Virus record (IMG/VR): IMGVR_UViG_3300025266_000036
Coordinates: 1-28,687 of that record
DNA length: 28,687 bases
Direction: 5' to 3' (one strand)
From: a virus
Notes under the pieces: model-generated
Seen by the model: only the letters and a program-made list of their open reading frames with translations
Databases searched by the model: none
What the model was told of the DNA's origin: nothing
Position numbers and translations under genes: made by a program
Part shown: positions 3,141-28,264 of the stretch, piece by piece
Layout of the letters: the number at the start of each line of letters is the position of its first letter
Numbering within the stretch: the first letter of the stretch is position 1

Positions 3141-3173
3141 TTTATAAATTTTTGATTAAGTATCAAATATACT

Positions 3174-7393: not shown

Positions 7394-7397
7394 CAAT

Positions 7398-7425
7398 TAT
7401 ATAACGTATAAATAAAGGTAATTTG
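7398..7425 (-). promoter_or_regulatory. late-type promoter A (CGTTATATA), before the portal operon
   Basis: The minus strand carries CGTTATATA at 7406..7398, 4 nt before the ATG at 7393. An ACAAATT box starts 20 nt upstream of CGTT (C at 7425), the same offset as at promoters B and C. It lies directly after the tail-tube terminator. Confidence 0.6.
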
Positions 7426-7432
7426 TAAAAAC

Positions 7433-7463
7433 AAAAAAAAAGCACCCGATTAAGGATGCTTTT
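7433..7463 (-). terminator. intrinsic terminator after tail-tube gene
   Basis: On the minus strand AGCATCC (7460..7454) pairs with GGGTGCT (7447..7441, one G-U) around a 6-nt loop, with nine T residues after it. It closes the tail-tube transcript just before promoter A. Confidence 0.85.
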
Positions 7464-7483
7464 AATTTCAACTAAATATTTAA

Positions 7484-8044
7484 TTATCCTTGTCCTGGGT
7501 CAAGTGGTATTCCAACTGGTGTTGGGTCAATCTGTAATGCAGATGGTGTAACCGCTGTTGCTAAAAAGAAAGGTGCTACTTCTTCCATTCCCTCGAATGT
7601 TAGCGTAAATCCTGAGAGGTCACCAGCGCTTGCGCCACTAACCACAGTACCTCCCGTGCATTCCATACCATTCTCTAAACCACATAGAAAACTATTACCA
7701 TAGTAATCTTCTACTACAATATTTGGTCTAGATATTGCTAAAATTTGCAACTCTGATTGAGTTTTAGCATCTAAAAATGTTAGTGTAAGGTTTAAAGTTT
7801 GAGTATAAAATGTCGTTCCGTTTTCTCTAGATGACGTCACACTTGTCTCTAAACTAGAATTACCTTTTACGTCATATTCAAACCATACAGATGGAGTTGA
7901 AGCATCTACTATTGTTGCTTCTTTTGTTGTTGCGTCTACTGTTACACTTCCGATACCACCGAAATCTGCAAAGTAAACACGTTTGATGCCACCAAAGGCA
8001 CTTTTACAAGGTAGTTGTCTACCCGATGTTAATGTACAAGCCAT
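7484..8044 (-). CDS. major tail (tube) protein
   Basis: 186 aa. Probably the hexameric subunit of the non-contractile tail tube. It is beta-rich: KRVYFADFGGIGSVTVDATTKEATIVD, an EYDVKGNSSLETSVTSSRENGTTFYTQTLNLTLTFLDAKTQSELQ core resembling the tail-tube beta sandwich, then LAISRPNIVVEDYYGNSFLCGLENGMECTGGTVVSGASAGDLSGFTLTFEGMEE, typical of siphophage tube proteins. The gene stands alone between two strong terminators, which fits an abundant protein with its own dosage control. No CGTTATATA precedes it, so its promoter is unclear. The call rests on fold-like pattern and context. Confidence 0.75.
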   Translation of the reverse strand: MACTLTSGRQLPCKSAFGGIKRVYFADFGGIGSVTVDATTKEATIVDASTPSVWFEYDVKGNSSLETSVTSSRENGTTFYTQTLNLTLTFLDAKTQSELQILAISRPNIVVEDYYGNSFLCGLENGMECTGGTVVSGASAGDLSGFTLTFEGMEEVAPFFLATAVTPSALQIDPTPVGIPLDPGQG

Positions 8045-8103
8045 TGTTTTTGTATTATGCTAATTATCAAGTAGTTACACCCATATCAGCGTTATTGTTA
8101 TAT

Positions 8104-8146
8104 AAAAAAAGGGTAAGCAGATAAAACCACCTACCCTAGTTTTTTG
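8104..8146 (-). terminator. intrinsic terminator after major capsid gene
   Basis: On the minus strand AGGGTAGG and the TTACCCT arm (about 8137..8130 with 8110..8116) form a 5-6 bp stem with a large loop, followed by seven T residues. It lies 13 nt after the capsid gene's last codon. Confidence 0.7.
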
Positions 8147-8158
8147 ATTAATTAATTA

Positions 8159-9136
8159 CTATGCGTATTCTACTAGGTCAGATGCGATTCCAAACTGAAC
8201 ACTTGCAGTAAATCTAAGTATCATTCTCACATTGTTACTACCATCCAAATCTGACATATCTAGTACTTTCACTTCTTGTGCTGAATTTAGTAACCCAGTT
8301 CCAAAGTATAAGTTAGAGCGTTGTGCTGCATACATTTTGTTGTCAGCCATTCCTGGACATACAAAGATTTTTACACCGTTAACTGTTAGGCTTCCGTTGT
8401 TCCACCATTGCGTACCCATATTAGCTACACCATTCGCTCCTAAACCACTTGCTCCAAAGCCACCTAGTGCTTGTACATATAATTTAGCTGCTTTACTTCC
8501 GATGTATAAGAATAAATCTTCTTTACCATATAGTGCTGCTGGTATTGCATCAACTACTTTAGAAAGTTCATCAATAATGTTTGTAGATAATAACCCACCT
8601 GCTACTGCTGCAACTTGTTGTCCTGCTGGAATATCTCCTGCTGCTGCTGATGCTGCAATTAGCTTTTCAAACCCATCAAAAGAGTTGTTAGTTGCTGCTG
8701 CTGTATCACCTTGCCAGATATTAAATTCTGTGTTCTGCGCTACTTCGGCTGCAACGTGTGCAATCATAAAGTCTGTGAATTTTGGAGGTAATGTTTGTCC
8801 TAATCCATATCCCATTGATTGTGCTTCCCAATCGTTTACAAAGTCATACTTACATAATTGTAGGTTTACTTGTAGTTCTTTAGGCTCAATTATTCTTTCA
8901 GTTAATGTGATTGTAGATGTAGGTGTAAAATCACAAGATGCAGATGCTACTAAAGCATTTGTTGCAAGTTTCTTAATTACTTCTTTAAAAGCAATGTTTG
9001 CCTTTACTGTTAAACCGCCATCATCAATAGTTGATGCAGATAATAAAGCTGCTGCGATATACTCACCAGCAAACTCACCAGCATATGTAGTGGTGATGTT
9101 AGTGGTTGTTGCTAAATTTACGTTTCTTTTATTCAT
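8159..9136 (-). CDS. major capsid protein (HK97-fold expected)
   Basis: 325 aa, in the normal range. The shell subunit. Evidence is position (scaffold, then capsid, then terminator, then tail tube), Ala/Gly-rich composition, and features common in HK97-type capsids: ELQVNLQLCKYDFVNDWEAQSM, a central ALYGKEDLFLYIGSKAAKLYVQALGGFG segment, WNNGSLTVNGVKIFVCPGMADNKMYAAQRSNLYFGTGLL, and a C-terminal DGSNNVRMILRFTASVQFGIASDLVEYA strand. No N-terminal prosegment is obvious; the separate acidic scaffold and the XkdF-type protease may supply maturation. It starts 2 nt after the scaffold stop. Confidence 0.86.
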   Translation of the reverse strand: MNKRNVNLATTTNITTTYAGEFAGEYIAAALLSASTIDDGGLTVKANIAFKEVIKKLATNALVASASCDFTPTSTITLTERIIEPKELQVNLQLCKYDFVNDWEAQSMGYGLGQTLPPKFTDFMIAHVAAEVAQNTEFNIWQGDTAAATNNSFDGFEKLIAASAAAGDIPAGQQVAAVAGGLLSTNIIDELSKVVDAIPAALYGKEDLFLYIGSKAAKLYVQALGGFGASGLGANGVANMGTQWWNNGSLTVNGVKIFVCPGMADNKMYAAQRSNLYFGTGLLNSAQEVKVLDMSDLDGSNNVRMILRFTASVQFGIASDLVEYA

Positions 9137-9138
9137 TT

Positions 9139-9726
9139 TTATTTATTTAATTTGCTTAATACTCTATCTAGTGTTGTGTTAAATTGTCCTTTACCAAATT
9201 GCACTTGTGTTTTTTGTGGTGCTTTTGCTTCTGGATTATGTTTGATTGGTTTTACTGATGAAAGTTCTTCTTTCATTTCAACTTCTTTTTCTTCAACCAC
9301 TTCTTCTGCTTCTACTTTGTCAGACTTTAAATCTGCAATAGCATCTTCTAGGTTTTGGATTTTATCTTCCATCTGTCTAAAGGTATCTTTAGTTACATAG
9401 TTTTCTTCATCCATCATTTTTTCTTCTTCTTTTTCTTCTTTTAAATCCTCTGTTGTTTCTTCTTCTTTGGCTGGTACTTCATCAGATACTTCTCTAACAT
9501 CTGCAATAACACCCTCAGCTTCTACAACAACCAATCTACCATCTTCTAAGATGTATTCACCAACTGGCATTGCAACCTTTTCATCATCTGTTACAATAAA
9601 GATTTCTTTTCCTTTTTCAAATGCTTCTGCACTTACCACAGTACCATTTTCTAACTTTTGTTCTTCAAGTTTAACCTCGATGTTTAAAAGTGTTTTTATT
9701 TCGTTTAACATATCATTTGCTTTCAT
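9139..9726 (-). CDS. capsid scaffolding protein
   Basis: 195 aa, strongly acidic. The N-terminal part (10-80) has a repeated beta pattern (KLENGTVVSAEAFEKGKEIFIVTDDEKVAMPVGEYILEDGRLVVVEAEGVIADV), seen in scaffold or decoration proteins of other phages. Residues 83-155 are a Glu/Lys coiled coil (VTKDTFRQMEDKIQNLEDAIADLKSDK), and the C-terminus is basic and Pro/Gln-rich. An acidic coiled coil with a basic end, directly before the capsid gene, is the usual scaffold pattern. Promoter B lies 6 nt before its ATG. Confidence 0.78.
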   Translation of the reverse strand: MKANDMLNEIKTLLNIEVKLEEQKLENGTVVSAEAFEKGKEIFIVTDDEKVAMPVGEYILEDGRLVVVEAEGVIADVREVSDEVPAKEEETTEDLKEEKEEEKMMDEENYVTKDTFRQMEDKIQNLEDAIADLKSDKVEAEEVVEEKEVEMKEELSSVKPIKHNPEAKAPQKTQVQFGKGQFNTTLDRVLSKLNK

Positions 9727-9732
9727 ACTATT

Positions 9733-9760
9733 TATATAACGGTTATTAAATTAAAATTTG
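9733..9760 (-). promoter_or_regulatory. late-type promoter B (CGTTATATA), before scaffold-capsid operon
   Basis: CGTTATATA at 9741..9733 on the minus strand, 6 nt before the scaffold ATG. A GCAAATTT box has its C at 9760, 19 nt upstream of CGTT as in promoters A and C. Confidence 0.6.
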
Positions 9761-9765
9761 CGTTT

Positions 9766-9927
9766 TTAGTCTGTTCTTGTTATTACACCAATGCCTTGCG
9801 CTTGCATAGAACCATCACAACAAGAGATAGAATACTTATTGGTATCCCAACATAAACAAGCACGATTACCCCCAGTAGGTGATGTCCTACTAGGTATAAA
9901 AGTTTTATTTTTGTTGTTTCTTTGCAT
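9766..9927 (-). CDS. 53-aa Cys-rich protein (GGNRACLCW... SCCDGS)
   Basis: The ATG at 9927 follows the stop of the 122-aa gene with no gap. The product has an N-terminal basic part (MQRNNKNKTFIPSRTSPTGG), then NRACLCWD and YSISCCDGSMQAQGIG, giving four Cys (24, 26, 36, 37) that could bind metal or form disulfides. Small proteins with the same CLC...CCDGS-AQGIG layout occur in head regions of Bacteroidota phages. No function is known to me. Promoter B's upstream box starts 6 nt after its stop. Confidence 0.75.
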   Translation of the reverse strand: MQRNNKNKTFIPSRTSPTGGNRACLCWDTNKYSISCCDGSMQAQGIGVITRTD

Positions 9928-10296
9928 TTATTTTATTTTGTCTGCAAATTCTAACTCCGTTAAAAGTGCATTCATATTTGAATTTAGATTTTTATAATTT
10001 GGTATATCTGCAATTCTAACACCTAATTCTTTTGCTGCTTTTACCACTCTATCTTCTAATTTTAACGCATCATTAAATGATTTTCTGTATTTTTTAGATA
10101 AAGAATTTATGTTTTTTACTGTCAACTCATATTCTTCTCTTTCACTAAATAAATTACTTGCAAATTTTTTAATATCATTACTTGATGCTTTAATGTCATC
10201 TATTAAAGACAACTCAATCTTTTGTGTTGCAAGTTCAACTTTTGCTAATTCTGTTTTCGGTAGTTTGCTATAAACTTTTTCAATGTTACTTTTCAT
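9928..10296 (-). CDS. 122-aa helical protein in the head module
   Basis: Almost entirely helical with heptad-like segments (VYSKLPKTELAKVELATQKIELSLIDDIKASSNDIKKFASNLFSEREEYELTVKNINSLSKKYRKSF), with a C-terminal LGVRIADIPNYKNLNSNMNALL. It lies 2 nt after the protease gene. It could be a capsid assembly helper, but no family was recognised. Confidence 0.7.
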   Translation of the reverse strand: MKSNIEKVYSKLPKTELAKVELATQKIELSLIDDIKASSNDIKKFASNLFSEREEYELTVKNINSLSKKYRKSFNDALKLEDRVVKAAKELGVRIADIPNYKNLNSNMNALLTELEFADKIK

Positions 10297-10298
10297 AC

Positions 10299-10886
10299 TT
10301 ATTTATTTAATATAGATTTAATTTTACTTAATAATTCTTCACTTAATTGTTCTTCTACCTTTTCTTTAGGTGCTTCCATTTTATCCGCAAAATACCCCTC
10401 TATGCTGAACCCCTTGCATTTCTGGGTCAAAATATATTCCTGCCAAATCTCATCATTGTTTACCTTAACGCTTCCCATCCAAGTTCCAACAGGTACATCT
10501 AAACCATACATTGCAGTTTTGTCTTTTGCTTTGTCTTCTACTATCCAACTTTCAACTAATGTTAAACCACTTAATGGTTCTGCGTGTTCTAGTGTTGAAT
10601 TGCTTTGATTTCCTTTCTGTAAGAACATTTGAGATGCTTTTACAATAGTATCTTTTGAAAAGTATATATAATACTCACCCTCTGAACCATTGCGGTAAAT
10701 AGGCTTATTTGGTATTAACAATGCACCCATTAGTATTTTCTTTTCTTTGTCTACTTCTGCTAATTTTATTTCTTGGTTCTTTAAAGCAACAAAATCACTT
10801 TCAATAGCTGGACTTTCTACAATAGAAATTGCTTCTACTCCAATATCATCTTGTTCTTCATCTAAAATAAGTTCTATTATCTTCAT
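10299..10886 (-). CDS. prohead protease, XkdF-like serine protease
   Basis: 195 aa. Resembles the XkdF family of phage head-maturation proteases. Landmarks: VEAISIVESPAIESDFVALK (18-36), a strand ILMGALLIPNKPIYR (51-65), LEH101AEPL with the likely catalytic His, SWIVED followed by GLDVPVGTWMGSVKVNNDEIW (128-148), and KGFS161IEGYF with the likely catalytic Ser. The C-terminus is a charged helix. It would cleave scaffold or capsid inside the prohead. Promoter C lies 3 nt before its ATG. The family call is secure by motif; catalysis is inferred. Confidence 0.85.
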   Translation of the reverse strand: MKIIELILDEEQDDIGVEAISIVESPAIESDFVALKNQEIKLAEVDKEKKILMGALLIPNKPIYRNGSEGEYYIYFSKDTIVKASQMFLQKGNQSNSTLEHAEPLSGLTLVESWIVEDKAKDKTAMYGLDVPVGTWMGSVKVNNDEIWQEYILTQKCKGFSIEGYFADKMEAPKEKVEEQLSEELLSKIKSILNK

Positions 10887-10889
10887 AAA

Positions 10890-10917
10890 TATATAACGTG
10901 TTTAGTTTTTAATTTTG
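10890..10917 (-). promoter_or_regulatory. late-type promoter C (CGTTATATA), before protease operon
   Basis: CGTTATATA at 10898..10890 on the minus strand, only 3 nt before the protease ATG. The GCAAAATT box has its C at 10917, 19 nt upstream. The whole element just fits the gap after the tape-measure stop at 10921. Confidence 0.6.
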
Positions 10918-10920
10918 CAT

Positions 10921-12786
10921 TTATATACTTGCACCCTCTATAATGTTTCTATCTAGTTCTTGGCTTGTGGTTACGTCATTTGAAACTACAAATGCCCTAG
11001 TTGGTTTCTGTGTTTGACTTCCTATTGCATCTGCTAATTGGGTTTCACCACTTGCACCCACTACATTAAATGCTGGAGGTTGTGCGGTTGTTGTTGTTGG
11101 CACTCCACCACTTGGTGCTCCACTAGCACCAGGTACTTGTACACTTAATATTTTCTTTACATTAGCAATACCAGCTACACCGATAGCAGCAGCATTAGCA
11201 AACTTTAATGCAGTTTCAAAAGGTGTTACAGTTACCGCAGCAAGTGCATCAGATACACCTCTGTATGTGTTTATTGTTGCAGCAGCAACCGCAAAGGCTT
11301 TCCCAGCAGCAGTTTCTTCACCAGCTATTGCGCTAAAACTTTGTAATACATTTGCGGTATCATCTAAATTCTTCTTTTTTGCTTCTGCTTCTGTTTTTGA
11401 TATTTCTATTTTTGCATCTGCTATTTCTTCATCTCTTGTTAAGTTAGTTTGCCTTGATGTTTCTGAAAATTGGTCTAATGCTATTTGTGCATCTACCTTT
11501 GCTTGTGTACCAGCAGCTGCGTTATCTACAATAGCTTGTAATCTTGTCGTTTCTTGTTCAGCTTCAAGTATATCAATTTCTGATAATCTTTGTAATCTTA
11601 AAAGTTCATCTTCTATAAGTTCTGCATTAAATCTTTTTTTCTCAATAGATAATAAACTTTCACTTTCTAGTTCTGCATTTTTTAATTCTGTAGCTTCTTT
11701 TGTTAAAGCATTTGCGTTTGTTTGTTGTTCAGATTTAAAACCTGTTACTTGTGCCGCTACACCTTGTATATCTGCTTCTGCTTCTAATACCCTTACATAG
11801 TCTTCTGTTTTGCCAGTTAATTCAAATTGTGCTTGTGCTGCTGCTTTGACTAATTGAGCATTTTTAGTCATTTCTGTTTCTTGCTTTTCAAGAATAGTAT
11901 TTAACTCATTGTTTGCTGCTTGTCTTTCTGCTATGCTTTTTGTTTCATCATCTCTAATTTGTCTTTGTAGTTCTGCTTGCCTATCAAATTGTTCTAATAA
12001 TATTCTACTTTGTGCAGCAGCTATTTCAGCAGACTTTTTTAATTCTTGGTTTGTTTTGGCTGTTTCTAATGCAGACTTTACACTTACCTTACCAAGTTCA
12101 TTTACAACAGTTTCACCTATTGCTCCAACTTCTGTTATTGCTTCACTAAAATTATCTACAATATCGTTTCCAGCTTTGTTAGCTTCAATGGCTACTTCTG
12201 TTAAATCAAGTTTTGTTTGTGCAATGGCATCATTTAATTGGTTTATAGTTGTTGGGTCACCATCACCAAAAATAGATTTTTCCCACGCAAGTTGTGCAGC
12301 TTGAACAGCTAACTTAATCCCAAAGAAAGCATTTTTAAAAGGTGTTAATGCAAGTGTAAGTAATCCACTCATTACCTTACCAAGAGCATCAAAGTTTTCT
12401 GTTGCAGATGATACACTTTCATAAATAGAAATAACAGCATTTACAACTTGATTAAAAACAGCTTGTGCAGTATCAAATACAACATTTAAGCTATCCATCA
12501 CAGCCTGGTTTTCTTGTATTGCACTACTTACAAATTCAAATGCTTTTTGTAATAAGAATATAATACCAGATGCTTTGGCTAGGTTTCCTATTGATATACC
12601 AACTTTCTTAATTCCCTTTGCACCATCCTTTGCACCTTTTTCTACTTTCTCTAAACTTTCAGCAGTCTTTTTATTAGCACTTACAACTTCCTTTTCAAGT
12701 TTGGAATATTCCTTTTGGAATTCATCTAAATTCTTAACGGCTTCTTTGTACTTTAATTCAAATTCTACTTCTATTTTTTGCGCCAT
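10921..12786 (-). CDS. tail tape measure protein
   Basis: 621 aa. Sets tail length and helps DNA ejection; by the usual 1.5 Angstrom per residue rule a tail near 90-95 nm is expected. The sequence is nearly all helical: an N-terminal coiled coil (5-60), hydrophobic segments around 68-95 and 135-165, long Glu/Gln/Ala-rich coiled coils (190-470), then TAAGKAFAVAAATINTYRGVSDALAAVTVTPFETALKFANAAAIGVAGIANVKKIL, a very common tape-measure end segment. A Pro/Gly/Thr linker and an SNDVTTSQELDRNI tail follow. It overlaps the upstream 48-aa gene by 16 nt. Confidence 0.9.
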   Translation of the reverse strand: MAQKIEVEFELKYKEAVKNLDEFQKEYSKLEKEVVSANKKTAESLEKVEKGAKDGAKGIKKVGISIGNLAKASGIIFLLQKAFEFVSSAIQENQAVMDSLNVVFDTAQAVFNQVVNAVISIYESVSSATENFDALGKVMSGLLTLALTPFKNAFFGIKLAVQAAQLAWEKSIFGDGDPTTINQLNDAIAQTKLDLTEVAIEANKAGNDIVDNFSEAITEVGAIGETVVNELGKVSVKSALETAKTNQELKKSAEIAAAQSRILLEQFDRQAELQRQIRDDETKSIAERQAANNELNTILEKQETEMTKNAQLVKAAAQAQFELTGKTEDYVRVLEAEADIQGVAAQVTGFKSEQQTNANALTKEATELKNAELESESLLSIEKKRFNAELIEDELLRLQRLSEIDILEAEQETTRLQAIVDNAAAGTQAKVDAQIALDQFSETSRQTNLTRDEEIADAKIEISKTEAEAKKKNLDDTANVLQSFSAIAGEETAAGKAFAVAAATINTYRGVSDALAAVTVTPFETALKFANAAAIGVAGIANVKKILSVQVPGASGAPSGGVPTTTTAQPPAFNVVGASGETQLADAIGSQTQKPTRAFVVSNDVTTSQELDRNIIEGASI

Positions 12787-12917
12787 CTTAAATTTCTTTT
12801 TGTTTGTTTAAACCCACTTGAAAGTGTTTCTGCTAATTTATATTTTCCCTGTGCTATCTTTATGTTTTCAGTTTCACCATCAACAACTTGTAGCAAGTCA
12901 ATTATATTCTTAATCAT
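12771..12917 (-). CDS. 48-aa basic protein between tail-hub and tape-measure genes
   Basis: The ATG at 12917 overlaps the upstream TGA (ATGA), and the TAG lies 16 nt inside the tape-measure gene. The sequence runs MIKNIIDLLQVVDGETENIKIAQGKYKLAETLSSGFKQT and ends RWRKK. No family was recognised. Tight coupling to the tape measure suggests it helps fold or limit it. Confidence 0.65.
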   Translation of the reverse strand: MIKNIIDLLQVVDGETENIKIAQGKYKLAETLSSGFKQTKRNLRWRKK

Positions 12918-15028
12918 AGTATTGTGTTTAGTAATTCAAATTCTGTTTTACCAGTTGTTAAGTCTGTTGTTAGTGAATTAATCTTGTACCTATCTTGACC
13001 TATTTCTATTAAGTCATTTAGTTGTAAGTTATAATAAACCTTCATAGGTAAGTAAGCAGTAACCTTTAACAATCTTCTTCTAAAGTTAAATACATCTTGT
13101 ATGTACTCTTTGTATTCTGTTTCAAATAATGTATCTGTAAATTGTAATGCTGGTGATACTGGTGCAAAACCGCCACCTGTTGGTTCATTTGCCAAGTATT
13201 CATTTAACTCATTTTGAAAGTGTATGTTAAACTTGTTAGTGCTTGGTGAAAGTGCTTGACTATTTGATGGTATAACGTAATCAGTAATATCTTCAACTGC
13301 ACTATCTGCTGTATTTCTTATTCTTATAGGGTCACCACTCTCAATGCCTATTGCATAAAACAATAAAGGTTCACCAATATATGATTGTAAGTTTTCATTT
13401 ACAGAATAACCCCATTGTATATCTGTTGATGTTGTTGTTGATTGTCCAGCATCATACAATCTTTCAAACTGAAAATGCTCAAATGGTAATTCTATTTTAT
13501 ATGGTTCACTTGGTGCATCATAAATACCACCATTTAGTGTGTAACTTAAAGAACCCCACCCACTATTGGTAAGCTGTTCAAATTGCTTTGCTAATAATGT
13601 ACCTAAACCTTTATAGCTAAATGATATTTCATTAAAAGGTAGTGCAATATCTGATGTTGATTTTGTAGTATCAAGGTATTCATCTATGTTGTAAACTTGT
13701 GTGCTATCTAAATAGTAACTATCTAATGTTCTAACTACTATTGTTCCAACGTTATCTACATAAGTAGTAAGGTTAAACATATTAAACAAACCAGATAGAA
13801 AATCTATAATCTTCATCTTTGGTAATTGCTCAACTATGTTAAACTCAAAAACATCTGATGTTGTAAAAGCAAATTCATTATGATATGTATCAAAACCAGT
13901 TGTGAAATTTAAGCCATCTATCCAACCAATCCTAACATCAATAGCATTTATCGCAAAACTCAAACCTACCCCACTAAATTGTATTAAGTAAGTTGAATTA
14001 TCTTCTAAACCATCTGGTCCAGCAGAAATGTTTAATGTTTGGTCACCTTGTACACCATTTAGTTCACCAATTACAGTACCACCATTTTTTAATACTTGTA
14101 CATTGTATGTAACAGCATTATCAAACGGGTCTAACTCTAATTTAAATGTTGCTGGAAAAACACCTATTGGTGCATTAACGGTTATGATACCATTTTCAAC
14201 TGTAGATATTCTTTCATCAGAACCAGTTTTTACAATTAAGTCTTGCAGCTTTGTTTGTATAACCTCAACTTGTGTTGGTCTATCAACAGAACCACTTTTA
14301 CGATGTAACCACATAAACAATGTAGCAAATTGTTCGTTATTTACATTATTAAAAAAATCATCTGAAAACGCAATATCGTATTTTGTTTCTATTGCATCAA
14401 TAATTGTCTGTAACCTTACAGCATATTTAAACTGGTTCCATTCAACACCATTTTGTGTATCTGCATTGTGTGCAGCAATATTGTTTATTGTATCTTCTGG
14501 GTTAAATACTGCGTGTGCAACCCCGTTATAAATTAATCTGTTTGTGTGTGTTATTAAAGGAACAATAAAAGGTGTAACACCATCTTCCATAACACTTGTT
14601 ACAGTAGCAAAATCATAATCTCTATTGTAGTAATCTGAAAAACTTAAACTACTTAATTGAGCATCACCTAAAATATCTTTTAAATTAACTGTATTACCAA
14701 AGAAAGTAATTTTATATGTATGAGCAACATTGTTTTTTAACTCAACACCTTGCAAAGCTATTTTACCATCTTTAAAAGGTAAATCATTTAATTCAATTCT
14801 TGCATCTGCTTTTTTTCTTGCATCAAAACCATTACTTATATCAAAGTTATAATAGTGTTGAAATATCTTATTGTTTACACTAGATGCTGGAACAGAAAAA
14901 GTTTGCGTAAATTCAGTAAAGACCTTTGCTAAATCTTTTACATTCTTTATTGTTTGGGTAAGTGAAACCGTTTCATCCTTAAATAAATCTACTCTTTGAG
15001 TACCTATGTATAATTGTAATCTACGCAT
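12914..15028 (-). CDS. large tail protein, probable distal tail / baseplate hub
   Basis: 704 aa, beta-rich. The N-terminus (RRLQLYIGTQRVDLFKDETVSLTQTIKNVKDLAKVFTEFTQTFSVPASSVNNKIFQHYYNFDI) is a pattern shared by large tail proteins of flavobacterial phages. The middle includes Ig-like strands (TFKLELDPFDNAVTYNVQVLKNGGTVIGEL, 305-340) and PKMKIIDFLSGLFNMFNLTTYVDNVGTIVVRTLDSYY (about 425-465), resembling a tail-hub domain. The C-terminal NLQLNDLIEIGQDRYKINSLTTDLTTGKTEFELLN looks like the closing strand of hub proteins. It lies just upstream of the tape measure, an unusual order but consistent with the tail cluster. Confidence 0.72.
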   Translation of the reverse strand: MRRLQLYIGTQRVDLFKDETVSLTQTIKNVKDLAKVFTEFTQTFSVPASSVNNKIFQHYYNFDISNGFDARKKADARIELNDLPFKDGKIALQGVELKNNVAHTYKITFFGNTVNLKDILGDAQLSSLSFSDYYNRDYDFATVTSVMEDGVTPFIVPLITHTNRLIYNGVAHAVFNPEDTINNIAAHNADTQNGVEWNQFKYAVRLQTIIDAIETKYDIAFSDDFFNNVNNEQFATLFMWLHRKSGSVDRPTQVEVIQTKLQDLIVKTGSDERISTVENGIITVNAPIGVFPATFKLELDPFDNAVTYNVQVLKNGGTVIGELNGVQGDQTLNISAGPDGLEDNSTYLIQFSGVGLSFAINAIDVRIGWIDGLNFTTGFDTYHNEFAFTTSDVFEFNIVEQLPKMKIIDFLSGLFNMFNLTTYVDNVGTIVVRTLDSYYLDSTQVYNIDEYLDTTKSTSDIALPFNEISFSYKGLGTLLAKQFEQLTNSGWGSLSYTLNGGIYDAPSEPYKIELPFEHFQFERLYDAGQSTTTSTDIQWGYSVNENLQSYIGEPLLFYAIGIESGDPIRIRNTADSAVEDITDYVIPSNSQALSPSTNKFNIHFQNELNEYLANEPTGGGFAPVSPALQFTDTLFETEYKEYIQDVFNFRRRLLKVTAYLPMKVYYNLQLNDLIEIGQDRYKINSLTTDLTTGKTEFELLNTIL

Positions 15029-16023
15029 TATCTAATGTTGTTTATGTAATCAAATGCTTCTTCAAATTCTATTGTGTATTCTATTAGCCTATCATTTACA
15101 CTTGTTTTAAAAGCTAATGATGAGGTTTTAACTTTAACTGGTACAACTATATAACTAGCCACACCAACACCACTTACCAGTTTAGATAACCAAACGTACT
15201 CACTTAATAATAGTTCTTCAAATTGTTGATTTGCAAACTCTGGATAATACCCACTACTTAAGATGTGTGTTTGTTTTGCTTGTGTGTTAAATACTTTGTT
15301 TGGTGCATCTTGCACAGAGTATGTTGCACCACCACTTGGATAGGTTATTGTGTTTGACTTATAACCCTCATTTGTTCTTGCAAGGTTTTTACTTTCTTTT
15401 AAAAAGAACCACAAATCTTGTTGCGCACCATACTTGTTGATGTATGTTATCTTATTACCAATACCATACTTTGTGCAATCAATCCTTTTTATATTACACA
15501 CTACATTATCAACTGTTGTTACACTTGTATCACTTACCGTGTATGGTGTTACTGCTAAACCATTTAAAGATGTTATGTTTGGAATTATCCCAGCAGTATT
15601 GTTAGGTATAAATATTGTAAAGGTACTTGTATCTGTTGTAGGTATTAAGTAAGTTGGTGCGTTTCTAAATGGTACCTCTGGATTTACTCCTTCTTCAAAA
15701 GTTCCATAGGCTTCAAAACCTCTATCAGTTATTGTTGATGGTATGTCAACAGTTGAACCTGTTCCATTTAAACCAGCTTTATTAGTTAGTGTAGTTACAA
15801 TATCTATTGTTTGTAATACATAGTTACTTTTAAATTCTATTTCTATGTAATCCCTTGCAAGTTCAGCTATATCAAAATTAACAGTTGTACTTGGTTGTAC
15901 GTTTTTAATCAAAGTGTATCTTAATGTTCCACCTATCGTTACTTCGCATATAGTAGATAATACACCAGATGATGGTATTATTAAACTTTTAAATTGTGGA
16001 TTTCTTAATGCTAAATTTGCCAT
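15028..16023 (-). CDS. 331-aa tail protein, probable baseplate/distal tail component
   Basis: Beta-rich, with alternating polar residues (PQFKSLIIPSSGVLSTICEVTIGGTLRYTL, NFDIAELARDYIEIEFKSNY). The segment RIDCTKYGIGNKITYINKYGAQQDLWFFLKESKNLARTNEGYKS (183-226) is a pattern I associate with tail proteins of Bacteroidota phages. The C-terminal half holds WLSKLVSGVGVASYIVVPVKVKTSSLAFKTSVNDRLIEYTIEFEEAFDY. One-base overlap (TAATG) with the 704-aa tail gene. Its exact place in the tail is unknown. Confidence 0.7.
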   Translation of the reverse strand: MANLALRNPQFKSLIIPSSGVLSTICEVTIGGTLRYTLIKNVQPSTTVNFDIAELARDYIEIEFKSNYVLQTIDIVTTLTNKAGLNGTGSTVDIPSTITDRGFEAYGTFEEGVNPEVPFRNAPTYLIPTTDTSTFTIFIPNNTAGIIPNITSLNGLAVTPYTVSDTSVTTVDNVVCNIKRIDCTKYGIGNKITYINKYGAQQDLWFFLKESKNLARTNEGYKSNTITYPSGGATYSVQDAPNKVFNTQAKQTHILSSGYYPEFANQQFEELLLSEYVWLSKLVSGVGVASYIVVPVKVKTSSLAFKTSVNDRLIEYTIEFEEAFDYINNIR

Positions 16024-16024
16024 C

Positions 16025-16168
16025 TTAGTAGTCTAGTGTTAGGGTTGCTATAAACAAATAGAACCTTATTGTTGTGTATGTATATCTTTCATCTTTTGCG
16101 ATGTATTCCCATCCTAACATAAGTCTGTTATGTGGGTAATGAAATGCTATGCCTAATGTCCAATCCAT
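16025..16168 (-). CDS. 47-aa small tail-module protein
   Basis: Starts 4 nt after the gp10-like stop and ends one base before the next ATG. The sequence reads MDWTLGIAFHYPHNRLMLGWEY, then a polar turn, then YTTIRFYLFIATLTLDY. It resembles small tail-region proteins of other Bacteroidota phages that start with a similar W-T-GIAF pattern. The last 14 residues are hydrophobic but short for a membrane span. Function unknown. Confidence 0.7.
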   Translation of the reverse strand: MDWTLGIAFHYPHNRLMLGWEYIAKDERYTYTTIRFYLFIATLTLDY

Positions 16169-16172
16169 AATT

Positions 16173-16700
16173 TTATTTTTCGGTGAATACCATCTGTGAC
16201 CTTATGTCTTCTGCAAATGCTTTTCCCATATCTAATTCATATTTTTGTATTCCAGCTACAAATGGTTTTGTAAAGAATAAGTTTGCTTTTAAACCTTTGT
16301 TGTAAATACTTTTTACAATTAAGTATCTCATACTTTGGTAACTCATAAACTTACCTTTTTTATCTCGCCATTGAAACCTTTTCTTTCTTAACCATTTATC
16401 AATACCTTTGGTTAAACCACCTTTTGGACCAGTACCGCTACCATATTGAAATGGTGATAGTGCTGCACTTGTTTGTGGATATGTTGAGGTCTTACCCTTT
16501 ACACCTCTATCAACAAAAGCACCGTAATCTTCCATCATAAATTCAACCAACATTGCTTGGTCATCTTCTAGCAAGTTATAAGATAAAGAGTTGTATAAAT
16601 CACCACCACCTTTATCATCTTTTGTTAATCTGCTTCTAGACTGCTGGATTACATATTTAGCGTATTGGGTCATTACAGCTTCAAGATTGTTAAACTCCAT
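16173..16700 (-). CDS. HK97-gp10-like tail completion/neck protein
   Basis: 175 aa. An upstream in-frame ATG at 16751 exists, but the ATG at 16700 overlaps the previous stop (TAATG) and is the better start. The pattern fits the gp10-like neck/tail completion fold: MTQYAKYVIQQSRSRLTKDDKGGGDLYNSLSYNL near the start, LVEFMMEDYGAFVDRGVKGK, then GGLTKGIDKWLRKKRFQWRDKKGKFM, and YLIVKSIYNKGLKANLFFTKPF. The GxFVDRGV and SI-x2-KG motifs are typical. Role: joins tail to head. Moderately sure. Confidence 0.72.
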   Translation of the reverse strand: MEFNNLEAVMTQYAKYVIQQSRSRLTKDDKGGGDLYNSLSYNLLEDDQAMLVEFMMEDYGAFVDRGVKGKTSTYPQTSAALSPFQYGSGTGPKGGLTKGIDKWLRKKRFQWRDKKGKFMSYQSMRYLIVKSIYNKGLKANLFFTKPFVAGIQKYELDMGKAFAEDIRSQMVFTEK

Positions 16701-17170
16701 TAGCAGATGTATATATCGTTGTAAATTAATATGTCCATTGATGCTGACCATCCAGCTAATTGGTTTTCAAACCTATCCATAAAAGGTTCTAAACTTGGGT
16801 TACCCTCTAGTTGGTACATATCTTGGTGTAGCTGTCCCATTCTTAACCTTTGTACAAGCCTATTTAAGACCGCTAGTTGCGTGTTTAAAATATCTTGCTC
16901 ATTAGTGTTACCAGTAAATCTATCTGTCGTTAAATCCTTTGTTTGGTCTACAATGTCACAAGCTAGTATTGTAATGCTAAACCTCAACACTTGTTCTTCT
17001 ACACTTACACTATTTACAATGATATGTGCCAATGGGAATATATCTTGCTTGTTTAGGTTTACATCGCTAATGTCACCAATAGAAACGGTATTAGTATTTA
17101 CATCTAGTAGTAGTTGGTCTTCTATTGTTGAGGTTAATTGGTAATACCCTCTTACACCTTGATTGCTCAT
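16700..17170 (-). CDS. 156-aa tail terminator/completion-like protein
   Basis: The ATG at 17170 overlaps the TGA of the frameshifted chaperone extension (ATGA), which indicates that ribosomes reaching 17167 feed this gene. The sequence starts GVRGYYQLTSTIEDQLLLDVNTNTVSIGDISDVNLNKQDIFPLAHIIVNSVSV, then a hydrophobic LRFSITILACDIVDQTKDLTTDRFTG segment and a C-terminal SASMDILIYNDIYIC. The beta pattern and position beside the gp10-like gene suggest a tail terminator. Inferred. Confidence 0.68.
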   Translation of the reverse strand: MSNQGVRGYYQLTSTIEDQLLLDVNTNTVSIGDISDVNLNKQDIFPLAHIIVNSVSVEEQVLRFSITILACDIVDQTKDLTTDRFTGNTNEQDILNTQLAVLNRLVQRLRMGQLHQDMYQLEGNPSLEPFMDRFENQLAGWSASMDILIYNDIYIC

Positions 17171-17906
17171 TTGAAATTTTGTTTAATTCTTTTTGCTTCT
17201 AGTTCTGCTTTTTCTTTCATATACTCTAAAGCATATAAGCATTTATGTACATTTAATTTAGTGATATCTTCAATTCTTCTAATATCGTTTTGAGCGAGGC
17301 TAGTGAAGATGTTTTGATACCATCCATATTTTCTTGAAAAATTTGTTGATGCATCGAGTTGTCCGTTTGCGGCTGCTCCAAATAGTTCACCATAACCATT
17401 GATAATTCTATCCCTAAATTGTACAAAAAAAAAATTGAACCCAGAACAATGTCCATAGGTATTTCTTCTATCTTTTCTTTTGCATCAACCTCATAGTCTA
17501 CAATAGTATATTTTTCTCCTATTGATTTTTCTATTGGTCTATACAATACATTCATTGCTATTTGCATATTTTGCCAATCACCAATGTAGGTATCTAAATC
17601 TATATATTCACCCAAACTAATATCATCTAGGTTTGGTATCATTCCATAATCAACACCACCAATTTTAAATCTTCTTGTTAAGTCTGGTTTCGCTTCAAAC
17701 ATATTATTTAAAACCTCAACAACTTTGTTTGCATCACCTACCTTAAGCATCCTTACATTCTTTGCTTCCAGGTTGCAAAATATCTCTATCATCTTACATT
17801 GTAAAAAGTAACTATCCTCATTGCTGTCTTGCAGCTTTAGAAACTTTTGGTATTGCTTTAGTGTTATTTCAGATAAATCACTTGGTACTATCAATTCAAC
17901 TTTCAT
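17167..17906 (-). CDS. tail assembly chaperone, long form by -1 frameshift (gpGT-like)
   Basis: If ribosomes slip back one base on the T run, they read about 161 zero-frame codons and then 85 more in the -1 frame, giving about 246 aa. The extension reads QFRDRIINGYGELFGAAANG, then SRKYGWYQNIFTSLAQNDIRRIEDITKLNVHKCLYALEYMKEK and AELEAKRIKQNFK. It has no usable early ATG of its own, fills the 82-nt gap after the short-form stop, and ends in a TGA overlapping the next ATG at 17170. Known siphophages use the same G/GT trick. Alternatives: a homopolymer sequencing error making one frame false, or an unseen internal start. Confidence 0.7.
17253..17906 (-). CDS. tail assembly chaperone, short form (gpG-like)
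   Basis: 217 aa. Starts MKVELIVPSDLSEITLKQYQKFLKLQ, a pattern typical of the first tail gene in Bacteroidota phages, continues with FKIGGVDYGMIPNLDDISLGEYIDLDTYIGDWQNMQIAMNVLYRPI, and reaches a ten-T run coding for I-F-F-L at 17434..17425. The zero frame then continues LYNLGIELSMVMVNYLEQP...NMDGIKTSSLASLKTILEELKISLN to a TAA at 17253. Both frames after the T run look like protein, see the next entry. Expected role: holds the tape measure while tail subunits polymerise. Promoter D lies 3 nt before the ATG. Confidence 0.78.
   Translation of the reverse strand: MKVELIVPSDLSEITLKQYQKFLKLQDSNEDSYFLQCKMIEIFCNLEAKNVRMLKVGDANKVVEVLNNMFEAKPDLTRRFKIGGVDYGMIPNLDDISLGEYIDLDTYIGDWQNMQIAMNVLYRPIEKSIGEKYTIVDYEVDAKEKIEEIPMDIVLGSIFFLYNLGIELSMVMVNYLEQPQTDNSMHQQIFQENMDGIKTSSLASLKTILEELKISLN
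17425..17434 (-). promoter_or_regulatory. T10 slippery site for -1 frameshifting
   Basis: Plus-strand A10 gives a U10 run in the mRNA, read as AUU UUU UUU UUG. It contains U UUU UUG, an X XXY YYZ type heptamer, in the correct phase for a -1 shift. I did not identify a stimulating structure downstream. Confidence 0.65.
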
Positions 17907-17909
17907 ACT

Positions 17910-17937
17910 TATATAACGTTTTTAAAATGGTTTTTTA
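17910..17937 (-). promoter_or_regulatory. late-type promoter D (CGTTATATA), before tail operon
   Basis: CGTTATATA at 17918..17910 on the minus strand, 3 nt before the chaperone ATG at 17906. The upstream box is weaker than at A-C: an A-rich stretch (TAAAAAA) replaces CAAA. Confidence 0.57.
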
Positions 17938-17955
17938 TACTAGAGTAAATATAAT

Positions 17956-17984
17956 AAAAAAAGGCACACCATTTACGATGCACC
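17956..17984 (-). terminator. intrinsic terminator closing the microprotein operon
   Basis: On the minus strand GGTGCA pairs with TGTGCC (two G-U pairs) around a 10-nt loop and seven T residues follow. A second 6-bp inverted repeat (TTAGTA/TACTAA, 18035..18050) overlaps the stop codon of the upstream 76-aa gene. The stretch 17985..18034 shows nothing else. Confidence 0.7.
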
Positions 17985-18046
17985 TCTTACTCAAAACTAA
18001 CTTAACTAAATCTTTCTATTGACGTTATACGATGTTAGTAATAATA

Positions 18047-18277
18047 CTAATCAAGGTCATTTAATTTTAATTCAAAATAGCACATATCACAAACCCCTTT
18101 GTAATTTATTTCAACATTACAGGTCGTACAATTACTAACAACGTGTAAACGTAATTGTTGGTTAAGTTCTTCTATCAAACTATCTGTTTTTATTAATTCT
18201 GTAATTGGTTGGTTTTCTCTATGTATTATGCTTTGTGGTTGTCCTAACTCACATATTTCAATTATTCTGTTTTTCAT
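18047..18277 (-). CDS. 76-aa protein with two CxxC pairs (zinc-ribbon-like)
   Basis: I use the ATG at 18277, because the longer frame would start with GTG at 18301. The first 50 residues are a charged helix (KNRIIEICELGQPQSIIHRENQ...). The end carries NCTTCNVEINYKGVCDMCYFELKLNDLD, a CxxC-x10-CxxC knuckle expected to bind zinc. Last gene of the microprotein operon before the terminator. Possible host-takeover or transcription-affecting factor; only the metal-binding shape is visible. Confidence 0.68.
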   Translation of the reverse strand: MKNRIIEICELGQPQSIIHRENQPITELIKTDSLIEELNQQLRLHVVSNCTTCNVEINYKGVCDMCYFELKLNDLD

Positions 18278-18329
18278 CTTACTTTGTTTTAAATTTATCA
18301 CAACTACGTTTACACAAATCCGTTAGCCA

Positions 18330-18548
18330 CTATAAATTGCTTTTTAGGTAAACATCTACAACATTTTCTGTAATTTCAGAGTTTGGATTTGTCCACATTT
18401 TCTGTTGCCATTTATGAAACGCAATTAACAGTTCACGTTGTTGGCTAACACCAAATAAAGATAATATTCGGTTCTCTAATTTTTTACAATCCCCTTTGCT
18501 TGTTGTAAAGTCGTAGGCTATTTGTTTAATTTCTTCTTTTGTATCCAT
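18330..18548 (-). CDS. 72-aa hypothetical helical protein
   Basis: Charged, helical: MDTKEEIKQIAYDFTTSKGDCKKLENRILSLFGVSQQRELLIAFHKWQQKMW, then a Thr/Asn-rich part ending VYLKSNL. No family was recognised. It lies in the early-type microprotein operon. Confidence 0.66.
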   Translation of the reverse strand: MDTKEEIKQIAYDFTTSKGDCKKLENRILSLFGVSQQRELLIAFHKWQQKMWTNPNSEITENVVDVYLKSNL

Positions 18549-18567
18549 ACTATCCTTATTTAATCCG

Positions 18568-18681
18568 TTAAATCATACTTGCTTCGTGACACGCACCAGA
18601 ACAAACTCCAGGCTTATCTATTTCTGTGCCACACTCTGTGCATTCATACTCTTTGTATTCTTCTGGGTTATACCAATCCAT
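18568..18681 (-). CDS. 37-aa Cys-rich microprotein
   Basis: The ATG at 18681 lies within the end of the preceding 44-aa gene. The product reads MDWYNPEEYKEYECTECGTE, then IDKPGVCSGACHEASMI: C14-x2-C17, C27-x3-C31 and a His, consistent with one zinc knuckle. Its layout resembles the C-terminus of the 76-aa protein and the 29-aa protein, suggesting related small zinc proteins. Confidence 0.65.
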   Translation of the reverse strand: MDWYNPEEYKEYECTECGTEIDKPGVCSGACHEASMI

Positions 18682-18802
18682 AATATTCTGTTTTAAGTTT
18701 ACCATTACGGTAATGTTCTACAATTACACCAGTTGATAAAGCTATTACCTTATAAGGTCTGATGCTTCTTTTTACTAAAATTTTGTTTATTAATTTCTTC
18801 AT
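18668..18802 (-). CDS. 44-aa basic protein
   Basis: I use the ATG at 18802; the longer frame would need a TTG start at 18856 inside the hairpin element. The sequence is MKKLINKILVKRSIRPYKVIALSTGVIVEHYRNGKLKTEYYGLV, basic with one beta-like half. Unknown function. It sits just after the terminator-like element at 18815..18887. Confidence 0.58.
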   Translation of the reverse strand: MKKLINKILVKRSIRPYKVIALSTGVIVEHYRNGKLKTEYYGLV

Positions 18803-18814
18803 CTGTTTGTTTTT

Positions 18815-18887
18815 AAAAAAAGGTAGGTAGCCTCCGTGATAACCGTCAACGACCAAATTTATTGTTAGTGGATAACTCCTACCCTTT
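18815..18887 (-). terminator. long-loop hairpin followed by T7 (attenuator-like)
   Basis: On the minus strand a 10-bp stem (AAAGGGTAGG at 18887..18878 with CCTACCTTTT at 18827..18818, one G-U) encloses about 50 nt and runs straight into seven T residues. The loop contains TTATCCACT, one mismatch from a DnaA box. It lies inside the microprotein operon, between the 29-aa and 44-aa genes, so it may tune downstream expression. A folded regulatory RNA cannot be excluded. Confidence 0.5.
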
Positions 18888-18889
18888 GC

Positions 18890-18979
18890 TTATTCATTAA
18901 ACTCTGCGTGTTCTAAACAATCACCACATATTTCATCACTTAAATAGGATGCTTCAGCATCACAGCAATTACTAAACAT
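18890..18979 (-). CDS. 29-aa Cys-rich microprotein
   Basis: The ATG overlaps the TAA of the preceding 50-aa gene (TAATG). The product starts MFSNCCDAEASYLSDEICGD and ends CLEHAEFNE: C5, C6, C18, C21 and His23 form a compact metal-binding pattern. Small proteins with a CC-A-YL-D--C--CLEH pattern are common in phage genomes. The role is unknown. Confidence 0.62.
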   Translation of the reverse strand: MFSNCCDAEASYLSDEICGDCLEHAEFNE

Positions 18980-19131
18980 TATTGGTTGATGTATTTTAAT
19001 GTAGTAAGTGTTGCAGTAGCTTCTTGCTTTGCTCTTGTAAGCATACACACCTCATCTCTATCAAGGCTATTAAATATCCTTGCTTCAATGTCATCAATCA
19101 CATATTCTAAATTGTTTATTATTTCTTTCAT
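18979..19131 (-). CDS. 50-aa helical protein
   Basis: MKEIINNLEYVIDDIEARIF, then NSLDRDEVCMLTRAKQEATATLTTLKYINQ: two amphipathic helices. Coupled to the 29-aa gene by TAATG. Unknown family. Confidence 0.62.
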   Translation of the reverse strand: MKEIINNLEYVIDDIEARIFNSLDRDEVCMLTRAKQEATATLTTLKYINQ

Positions 19132-19145
19132 ATCTGTTTTGTTAA

Positions 19146-19163
19146 GGGGGCTTTTACACCCCC
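19146..19163. repeat. G5/C5 hairpin between 71-aa and 50-aa genes
   Basis: GGGGG and CCCCC (19146..19150, 19159..19163) around an 8-nt loop, striking in such AT-rich DNA. No T run follows on the minus strand, so it is more likely an attenuator or mRNA stability hairpin than a full terminator. Confidence 0.55.
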
Positions 19164-19171
19164 GTTAGTTG

Positions 19172-19387
19172 TTAGTCTATTCGGTATATTAACCCTTCAT
19201 CAACGGTTAAAATCTCTTTTTTTACTAGAGATGCTATAGCCCCCCTAAGTGTGTTAGGGCTTATTCTAGTGCCTCCTGTTTGGTCGTAGATTTCATCTTC
19301 TAGAAGTTCGATATCGCAAGAAATTTCGTCTGCTTCAAAAGGGCTTAATCCGTTTAGTATTGTTTGCTCTAGTTTAGTAAAAGTCAT
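19172..19387 (-). CDS. 71-aa winged-helix-like protein, first gene of microprotein operon
   Basis: MTFTKLEQTILNGLSPFEADEI starts a helical region; SPNTLRGAIASLVKKEILTVDEGLIYRI (43-70) looks like a recognition helix followed by a beta wing. A small DNA-binding regulator is plausible. It is transcribed from the early-type promoter P2. The fold call is by eye. Confidence 0.6.
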   Translation of the reverse strand: MTFTKLEQTILNGLSPFEADEISCDIELLEDEIYDQTGGTRISPNTLRGAIASLVKKEILTVDEGLIYRID

Positions 19388-19422
19388 AATAAAATAGTTT
19401 TAGTTAGTTAATTAGTTATACG

Positions 19423-19469
19423 CAAATATACACATAACTATATGTTATAAACAAACAATTTAACAACTA
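19423..19469 (-). promoter_or_regulatory. early-type promoter P2 with shared 24-bp element
   Basis: The shared element lies at 19446..19469. On the minus strand TTG (19454..19452), a 21-nt spacer and TATATTTG (19430..19423) match the Bacteroidota -33/-7 promoter form. The stretch 19388..19507 holds nothing else recognisable. Confidence 0.7.
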
Positions 19470-19507
19470 TCTTTAAAATAATTTATAATGTGCTAGTTAT
19501 AAGTAAT

Positions 19508-20719
19508 TTAGCTTATAAAGTAATTACCCCTATTTGGGTTTTGTAGTTGATATGATACAGCATATCTGATTGCATCTATAATATGGTTGAATTTGTCTTG
19601 TGGTGTTTTAGACTTTTTTTCAAGCCAAGAATAGTTGTTTAGTTCTTTGATGAGGTTAATACTGTTTTCTTCAACTATCAAATCATAATCTTGTAGTAAA
19701 GCTATACCATAAGTAATTGAACCTTGCCCTTTTATTGCTTTGACTACATTACAACCTTTGGCTTTTAGTTCGTGTAGCAATCTAGGTTCAGCACTATCAC
19801 CTACTATAAGACTATTATTAGCGTGTTTAAGGTTGAGGTTAGCTATTTCTGATGTGGTAAGACCTTTCAAGTAAAAGCATTCCTTTAAATAGATTATCTT
19901 GTTTGTGCTATCAATGTTGGTTTCTACTAAAGTATTTTCATCTGCTGCAAATCCATAATCTTGACCATACACACTTACACCTACTTTTTTAAATTCACCT
20001 ATCTGCCAGTTGTCAGAAAAAATAACACCCTCTGCTTTTGAAAGCCAGCCACCAAGCATCTGATGTTTGTATTTATCTGGTCTACGTTTCTTAATGTTTT
20101 CTATTTGTTCTAAATAGCTTTTAGATAGGTTTTCTATGTTATCTAAATAAGTTGTGTGTATGTAGTTTGTATTTCCTTTGGTTGCATTAGAACCAGCTTG
20201 TACACCTTTATCTTCAAAGAACCGGTTATAAATCCAATGCTCTTTTGTAACTGGGTTTAAAATAAGTATTACCCTATTCTTTTGTTTGAGATTTCTTACA
20301 CTTAAATCTATCTTGTCAAATATGTTTTCATCTTGCAGTTCTTCAGCTTCATCCATTACCCAGGTGCTAACATTAGTTAAAGACTTTAGGTTCGCTGTTT
20401 GGTCACCACTTGATGTCTTAATACCCTTGAAGATTATCTTGCTACCAGATAGCTTATTTCGTATCTCATCCTTTGTGATATGGAAATAGTCTTGTAGTTT
20501 AAGTGTTTCTATCTTATCTATAAATTCTGGTATAATAGAAATGTAAGCACTCGACAATGTAAACCTTGTAAATAAGATTGTATGCCCAGCTTCAAAAGTA
20601 AGCAACAACAATAGCAAGTTTATAGAATACGATTTACCCGAACCACGTCCACCAGTTACAATATAATATCTAGCATCTGATGTTTGGATAGGTTCATACT
20701 TTGTGTTTATGTCTATCAC
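19508..20719 (-). CDS. terL: terminase large subunit
   Basis: 403 aa, PBSX/Terminase_3-like. The motor and nuclease that packages DNA into the prohead. ATPase: Walker A GGRGSGKS (23-30), Walker B TWVMDEAEE (119-127) with D123/E124, coupling motif LNP (154-156). Nuclease: acidic residues D254 (YGQDYGF), D308 (VGDSAEP) and D382 (HIIDAIRYA), in RNase-H-like order. The start overlaps the small-subunit stop by 4 nt. The gene is normal length and intact. Confidence 0.93.
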   Translation of the reverse strand: MIDINTKYEPIQTSDARYYIVTGGRGSGKSYSINLLLLLLTFEAGHTILFTRFTLSSAYISIIPEFIDKIETLKLQDYFHITKDEIRNKLSGSKIIFKGIKTSSGDQTANLKSLTNVSTWVMDEAEELQDENIFDKIDLSVRNLKQKNRVILILNPVTKEHWIYNRFFEDKGVQAGSNATKGNTNYIHTTYLDNIENLSKSYLEQIENIKKRRPDKYKHQMLGGWLSKAEGVIFSDNWQIGEFKKVGVSVYGQDYGFAADENTLVETNIDSTNKIIYLKECFYLKGLTTSEIANLNLKHANNSLIVGDSAEPRLLHELKAKGCNVVKAIKGQGSITYGIALLQDYDLIVEENSINLIKELNNYSWLEKKSKTPQDKFNHIIDAIRYAVSYQLQNPNRGNYFIS

Positions 20720-20982
20720 TTAAATTTGATGATATCTTTAAAGTTAATATTAAACCCTTCTGATGATGTTATATCCACACTCTCTTTTGGTTTACCATAT
20801 CTGTAACCAAAGTATAATGACATAGCACGACTATCACCCTTTAAGATTTGTTTACCTAGTGTTTTAATCACCTCATCATTATCTATAAGGTTATCTAGCT
20901 TTTCTATTAGTTTAAGTTCATCAGCTTTCTTTGGTCTACCAGCACCCTCTCTTACACCACCGTTATTTTTTCTTTTATCCAT
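20716..20982 (-). CDS. terS: terminase small subunit (probable)
   Basis: 88 aa from the ATG at 20982; the longer frame would start with TTG at 20991. The N-terminus KRKNNGGVREGAGRPKKADE is the Gly/Arg/Lys-rich DNA-binding motif common in small terminases. Then LKLIEKLDNLIDNDEVIKTLGKQILKGDSRAMSLYFGYRYGKPKES, a helical oligomerisation-like part. It recognises the packaging site and loads the large subunit. The call rests on motif and position. Confidence 0.78.
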   Translation of the reverse strand: MDKRKNNGGVREGAGRPKKADELKLIEKLDNLIDNDEVIKTLGKQILKGDSRAMSLYFGYRYGKPKESVDITSSEGFNINFKDIIKFK

Positions 20983-21006
20983 TTGATACAAATTTGTTTA
21001 TTCAAT

Positions 21007-21034
21007 TATATAACGTAATTAAACTTTGTTTTTT
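21007..21034 (-). promoter_or_regulatory. late-type promoter E (CGTTATATA), before terminase genes
   Basis: CGTTATATA at 21015..21007 on the minus strand, 24 nt before the small-terminase ATG, directly after the methyltransferase stop (21019). It shares the flank ATTGA with promoter A. The upstream box would lie within the methyltransferase end. Confidence 0.55.
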
Positions 21035-28210: not shown

Positions 28211-28223
28211 TCGTTAAATATAT

Positions 28224-28259: not shown

Positions 28260-28264
28260 ATTAA

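Follow-up and report, generated by a model that had tools for sequence, protein, structure and literature searches.

Probable late promoters of a flavobacterial tailed phage and a phage-encoded ECF-like sigma factor as their candidate reader

Phage late transcription by means of a phage-encoded sigma factor is known from T4 (gp55) and SPO1 (gp28 and gp33/34), where a small phage sigma redirects the host polymerase to a short motif before structural and packaging genes. The locus described here would share this plan. It differs from T4 and SPO1 in having an ECF-like candidate sigma made up of regions 2 and 4, a bipartite promoter whose CGTT element follows a rigid 13-nt spacer, a host phylum that is Bacteroidota, and starts that apparently lie at or near the ATG. 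Late-gene control in Bacteroidota phages is little understood. In Flavobacterium psychrophilum, promoters of ECF type, motif SM6 among them, are recognisable by a CGT box in their -10 region (PMC9723704). With such ECF sigmas and SM6 the present system has in common a two-domain fold, CGT in the -10 region and an A-rich -35 box. The differences are that the sigma is a phage gene with no evident anti-sigma and would drive virion genes, and that the window clade has AAA, not AAC. Phage late sigmas and flavobacterial CGT-box ECF promoters (PMC9723704) are thus both on record; our literature coverage of phage ECF sigmas and of late promoters in Bacteroidota phages was incomplete, and within it we found no prior report of a Bacteroidota-phage ECF late sigma with its regulon.

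The whole stretch of DNA analysed, here called the window, is an IMG/VR virus record of 28,687 nt. An earlier note had reported that the 9-mer CGTTATATA occurs five times on the minus strand, always between genes, at the heads of the portal, capsid, protease, tail and terminase units. Exact matching recovered all five intergenic copies, and gene calls together with homologies agreed on the units that they head:

7398..7406, minus strand: putative late promoter 1, -10-type element CGTTATATA (exact match; kept in relatives)
7420..7425, minus strand: promoter 1, upstream (-35-type) element CAAATT (logo of 239 contexts)
7394, minus strand: promoter 1, predicted +1; ATG of p7007 at 7393, then portal
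9733..9741, minus strand: putative late promoter 2, CGTTATATA (exact match; kept in relatives)
9755..9760, minus strand: promoter 2, upstream element CAAATT (logo)
9729, minus strand: promoter 2, predicted +1; ATG of the scaffold-like gene at 9726, then capsid
10890..10898, minus strand: putative late promoter 3, CGTTATATA (exact match; kept in relatives)
10912..10917, minus strand: promoter 3, upstream element CAAAAT (logo)
10886, minus strand: promoter 3, predicted +1, the A of the protease ATG (leaderless if so)
17910..17918, minus strand: putative late promoter 4, CGTTATATA (exact match; 73/73 homologues)
17932..17937, minus strand: promoter 4, upstream element TAAAAA (logo)
17906, minus strand: promoter 4, predicted +1, the A of the first tail gene ATG (leaderless if so)
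21007..21015, minus strand: putative late promoter 5, CGTTATATA (exact match; kept in relatives)
21029..21034, minus strand: promoter 5, upstream element AAAA.. (A, not Y, at -19), within the end of the methyltransferase gene
21003, minus strand: promoter 5, predicted +1; small terminase ATG at 20982, leader about 21 nt
4896..7396, minus strand: unit 1, p7007 and portal protein (portal phrog_33693, E 6e-110)
8159..9726, minus strand: unit 2, scaffold-like protein and capsid-position protein (capsid role assigned from position)
10299..10886, minus strand: unit 3, head maturation protease-like gene (phrog_34096, E 3.5e-9)
10921..17906, minus strand: unit 4, tail genes (first gene 17253-17906, its tail role assigned from position)
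10921-12786, minus strand: tape measure-like protein at the end of unit 4
19508..20982, minus strand: unit 5, small and large terminase (TerL phrog_2, E 1.5e-41; small terminase by position)

The portal ORF (4896-7010) encodes 704 aa. Its profile match stops near residue 393, and the ORF continues far beyond, with an extra C-terminal region.

A logo of 239 contexts revealed a bipartite signal: YAAAWW at -19 to -14, a 13-nt AT-rich spacer, CGTTATATA, NNT and a purine. The CAAA that the earlier note placed 19 nt upstream of CGTT is present at three of the window sites; the true constant is AAA at -18 to -16, found at 5/5. That note contained neither the upstream half in this general form, nor a probable start-site position, nor the phage-encoded sigma factor. 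The fifth site departs from the bipartite pattern solely by A for Y at -19. Fewer than one chance copy per strand had been expected, and in 200 dinucleotide shuffles of the window the coding strand carried CGTTATATA at a mean of 0.09 (about 0.1), with a maximum of 1. The bipartite form appeared in none of the shuffles, compared with four exact matches in the window. The minus-strand copies stand as first described, and to them a sixth, previously uncounted copy must be added on the plus strand (21762-21770), antisense within the methyltransferase gene. This copy has neither the AAA box nor the T-purine, in keeping with a chance occurrence.

No cultured phage matched the window in a megablast search. 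Related loci were gathered with capsid, terminase and sigma queries, 342 in all. In the first 160, the late-gene strand carried 341 copies of CGTTATATA and the opposite strand a single one. The exact 9-mer preceded 73/80 scaffold-like genes, 51/63 protease genes, 73/73 first tail genes, 73/75 small terminase genes and 6/6 p7007 homologues, and in these loci it preceded no gene other than the five leaders. Leader homologues that lacked it mostly carried degenerate copies at the corresponding position, such as CGTAATACA or CGTTATATT. Over all 342 loci we counted 333 distinct contexts on the late-gene (majority) strand against 11 on the other, numbers that are not independent since the contexts share descent; two of the 11 resemble true sites from loci read in reverse. 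AAA at -18 to -16 was present in 97-99% of sense contexts and in 0/9 true antisense copies. Ten further long contigs (27.9-32.3 kb) had four or five copies each in the same arrangement, most of them all five, which brought the long-genome set to 53 sites in 11 genomes. In two of these genomes, G010 and G012, the terminase module is non-orthologous (TerL about 30% identical), yet its new first gene is again preceded by the promoter; in both G010 (L353/L354) and G012 (L355/L356) this gene is ParB-like as recognised by eye, not by profile. The earlier proposal that the motif would recur before homologous genes in related phages was thus strongly borne out. Conservation, strand bias and placement before the first genes of virion and packaging units likewise support a phage-specific late promoter class, with "late" read from the genes that the sites precede. 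On this sequence evidence the promoter reading of the five sites is well supported.

The position of the signal relative to the start codon was informative. From the C of the motif to the ATG the window has 12 nt in the tail and protease units; the distance is 13 nt for p7007, 15 nt for the scaffold-like gene and 33 nt for the small terminase gene, and distances in relatives resemble these values. Since the spacing of the two halves is constant at ATG distances of 12, 13, 15 and 33 nt, the position of each half is set by the other half and not by the start codon. A T-purine pair was found at positions 11-12 after the C in 89% of contexts, and was mostly retained even where it falls outside the ATG. 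The constant spacing and this retention argue for a promoter with a start 12 nt after the C, and not for a ribosome signal. The distance of 12 nt occurred in 156/333 contexts and at six sites of the genus Inhavirus, the second clade considered below; it is the usual one in both clades, which puts the predicted start on or near the ATG, and late mRNAs should accordingly be leaderless or nearly so. Leaderless mRNAs make up only about 5.5% in F. psychrophilum (PMC9723704), and Bacteroidota do without a Shine-Dalgarno sequence and use bases near the start codon instead (PMC6847099). Given a leaderless minority in flavobacteria and translation there without Shine-Dalgarno, a leaderless start for the late genes of the window is plausible but unproven.

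A candidate reader of the five promoters is encoded in the same genome, as indicated by profiles, a structure model with structure fits, and its distribution:

26895..27371, minus strand: 158-aa ECF-like sigma factor, proposed reader of the five promoters

Of 18 long contigs, 17 had a homologue, each in a single copy; the one without it is a 20-kb fragment. All 19 aligned sigma homologues matched NCBIfam ECF models and 12/19 matched Pfam Sigma70_r2 (best 6e-6); the window protein by itself scores under the curated cut-offs of both Pfam and NCBIfam. Its AF2 model (pLDDT 82) consists of two helical domains joined by a low-confidence linker, and the top Foldseek matches were ECF sigmas. Region 4 fits region 4 of E. 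coli sigmaE on -35 DNA (Z 9.5, 1.6 A, 63 residues), and region 2 fits SigR (Z 9.3, 2.2 A, 71 residues). The model and the fits thus give regions 2 and 4 with a linker and without regions 1 and 3, the ECF architecture. The ECF promoter hallmarks were partly present: CGT in all sites, AAAAC in the Inhavirus clade, and AAA only in the window clade. The upstream box of the window lies about 3 nt nearer to CGT than in typical ECF promoters, which counts against the ECF reading. A weak profile search with only two peptide patterns found no sigma relatives in bacterial genomes, and hence pointed to no prophage or host.

The closest cultured relatives of the window phage are the Nonlabens phages P12024S/L (genus Inhavirus). 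They have homologous portal, terminase, protease and sigma genes and bipartite sites with a C-to-ATG distance of 12. Their sigma is 28% identical to that of the window (E 2e-11) and is annotated "Sigma-70 region 2" in the records, where the promoters are unannotated. CGTTATATA is absent from P12024S/L; before the protease, portal, tail and other late units stands instead a TAAAACAAA-type box with a CGTTAATATA-like element. The distance from C to ATG is exactly 12 at six of seven sites and 11 at the seventh. CGTTA-N7-ATG occurs seven times in sense and once on the opposite strand, versus 0.55 in shuffles. The motif differs across the late units together with a diverged sigma, so the sites changed in concert while their distance to the start codon was unchanged. 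Within the window clade, contigs with sigmas down to 50-62% identity retain CGTTATATA or close variants. The link between sigma and motif is one of co-occurrence and co-divergence, the latter seen between only two well-separated clades.

Several other explanations were weighed against these data. Chance, or the shared ancestry of a short AT-rich sequence, has in its favor that the genome is AT-rich and that all compared sequences are related. Both versions are refuted by the counts, with 0.09 copies expected per strand and a strand bias of 333:11, and by the recurrence of one and the same signal ahead of five unrelated genes and also ahead of non-orthologous replacements. An exact short motif directly before a probable start recalls T7-class promoters, and this counts for a single-subunit phage RNA polymerase (T7-like), or else for a -10-only promoter like those of T4 late genes. 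The largest ORFs of the window (704, 704 and 621 aa) look structural, though, and we saw no polymerase gene; a T7-type polymerase was rejected as having neither room nor gene in the window. The fixed upstream box argues against the -10-only form, and we regard either version as very improbable. Hardly better placed is an RNA-level translation signal, a Shine-Dalgarno substitute 3-6 nt before the start codon. It would suit a phylum that lacks Shine-Dalgarno and uses bases near the start codon (PMC6847099), and the motif does end 3-6 nt from the ATG at four of five sites. At the terminase sites, however, it lies 24-35 nt from the ATG with both halves and their spacing intact, on which ground this explanation was rejected. 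Only the first gene of each unit carries the motif. The AAA box is placed two helical turns farther upstream, and two of the units have a terminator just above.

The alternative to which we give most weight, while holding it unlikely, is that the sites are late promoters read by another factor, either a host ECF sigma or the host polymerase aided by a different phage activator, for which the DnaA-C-like protein (21895-22458) is one candidate; the phage sigma would then serve another job. Flavobacterial hosts have several ECF sigmas and CGT-box promoters (PMC9723704). Several other non-structural phage proteins are conserved in all 11 genomes, among them the DnaA-C-like protein and those at 25748, 26157 and 27374. 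Against this, essentially every motif-bearing phage has this type of sigma, a diverged sigma goes with a concerted change of the motif, and the DnaA-C-like match is weak (E 0.0026).

We therefore consider it probable, with good confidence, that a flavobacterial tailed phage uses the five sites as late promoters, most likely read by the phage ECF-like sigma with a start 12 nt after the C. The sigma (26895-27371) would most likely replace the host primary sigma on host RNA polymerase, with region 4 contacting the AAA box and region 2 opening the CGTT/TATA element. The predicted start of transcription coincides with the A of the ATG for the tail and protease genes; it precedes the ATG by 1-3 nt for the portal and capsid units, and by about 21 nt for the terminase unit. 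Such a takeover of the host polymerase would open the virion regulon. More broadly, and with only modest assurance, we lean towards the following picture: in marine Bacteroidota phages of a large and mostly uncultured group, a single ECF-type sigma would control all virion production by way of a regulon of five promoters with rigid spacing, the start being aligned to the start codon and virion mRNAs being leaderless or nearly so. A signal, its exact register and a candidate sigma can now be named for a group of at least several hundred viral contigs, and the cultured cousin P12024S/L makes the proposal directly testable. If true, an ECF-sigma late regulon with starts on or near the ATG would be a new solution beside the classical T4/SPO1 scheme, and the phage would have its own entry route to transcription and translation in a phylum without Shine-Dalgarno. 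It would also give the annotation of viral contigs a reliable marker of late genes, and would suggest a sigma and promoter that could serve as an orthogonal pair in flavobacteria.

Two of the promoters have intrinsic terminators just upstream, both conserved in relatives:

7438..7463, minus strand: intrinsic terminator just 5' of promoter 1
17959..17988, minus strand: intrinsic terminator just 5' of promoter 4

In most genomes read, such terminators lie a few tens of nt 5' of the tail and portal promoters, so that a terminator is followed by a promoter and then by the gene. The Bacteroidota -7 box TAnnTTTG, said earlier to be missing from the late sites, was indeed found at 0/53 sites in the 11 genomes, and a host sigmaA promoter (TTTG ... 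TAnnTTTG) was rejected for them on this count. Total counts of the host-type TTTG/TAnnTTTG pattern were not enriched in sense (22 sense versus 26 antisense), and we therefore rely only on a conserved -7 box before gene 2901-3140. This TATATTTG box (3164-3171, minus strand) lies about 24 nt before the gene in the window and is kept, at about 20-25 nt, in 9/10 genomes; given this retention the lysis-side unit seems to stay under host sigma. Gene 2901-3140 adjoins holin and peptidase M15 genes.

Textbook host-type promoters were also present in the window at 25706-25736 (minus strand; TTTG-N19-TACATTTG) before gene 24868-25677, and at 19423-19455 (minus strand; TTTG-N21-TATATTTG) before gene 19172-19387. 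Both genes were found in 0/10 long relatives, and they resemble cargo acquired recently and equipped with host promoters. A Mom-like DNA modification protein (24161-24868; phrog_1384, E 1e-53) was likewise found in 0/10 long relatives. A strong intrinsic terminator (28210-28265, minus strand; about -15 kcal/mol) lies upstream of the ATPase-sigma gene pair, ending about 13 nt short of the ATG of its first gene, the ATPase, and is present in nearly all genomes read. Between it and the ATG there is no clear promoter save a conserved TAnnTTTA just before the ATG; this terminator may delay or limit sigma production. A further conserved terminator hairpin lies between the capsid gene and gene 7484-8044 (8110-8137, minus strand), where the unit has no late promoter of its own; in relatives its T-run ends 14-19 nt before the start codon.
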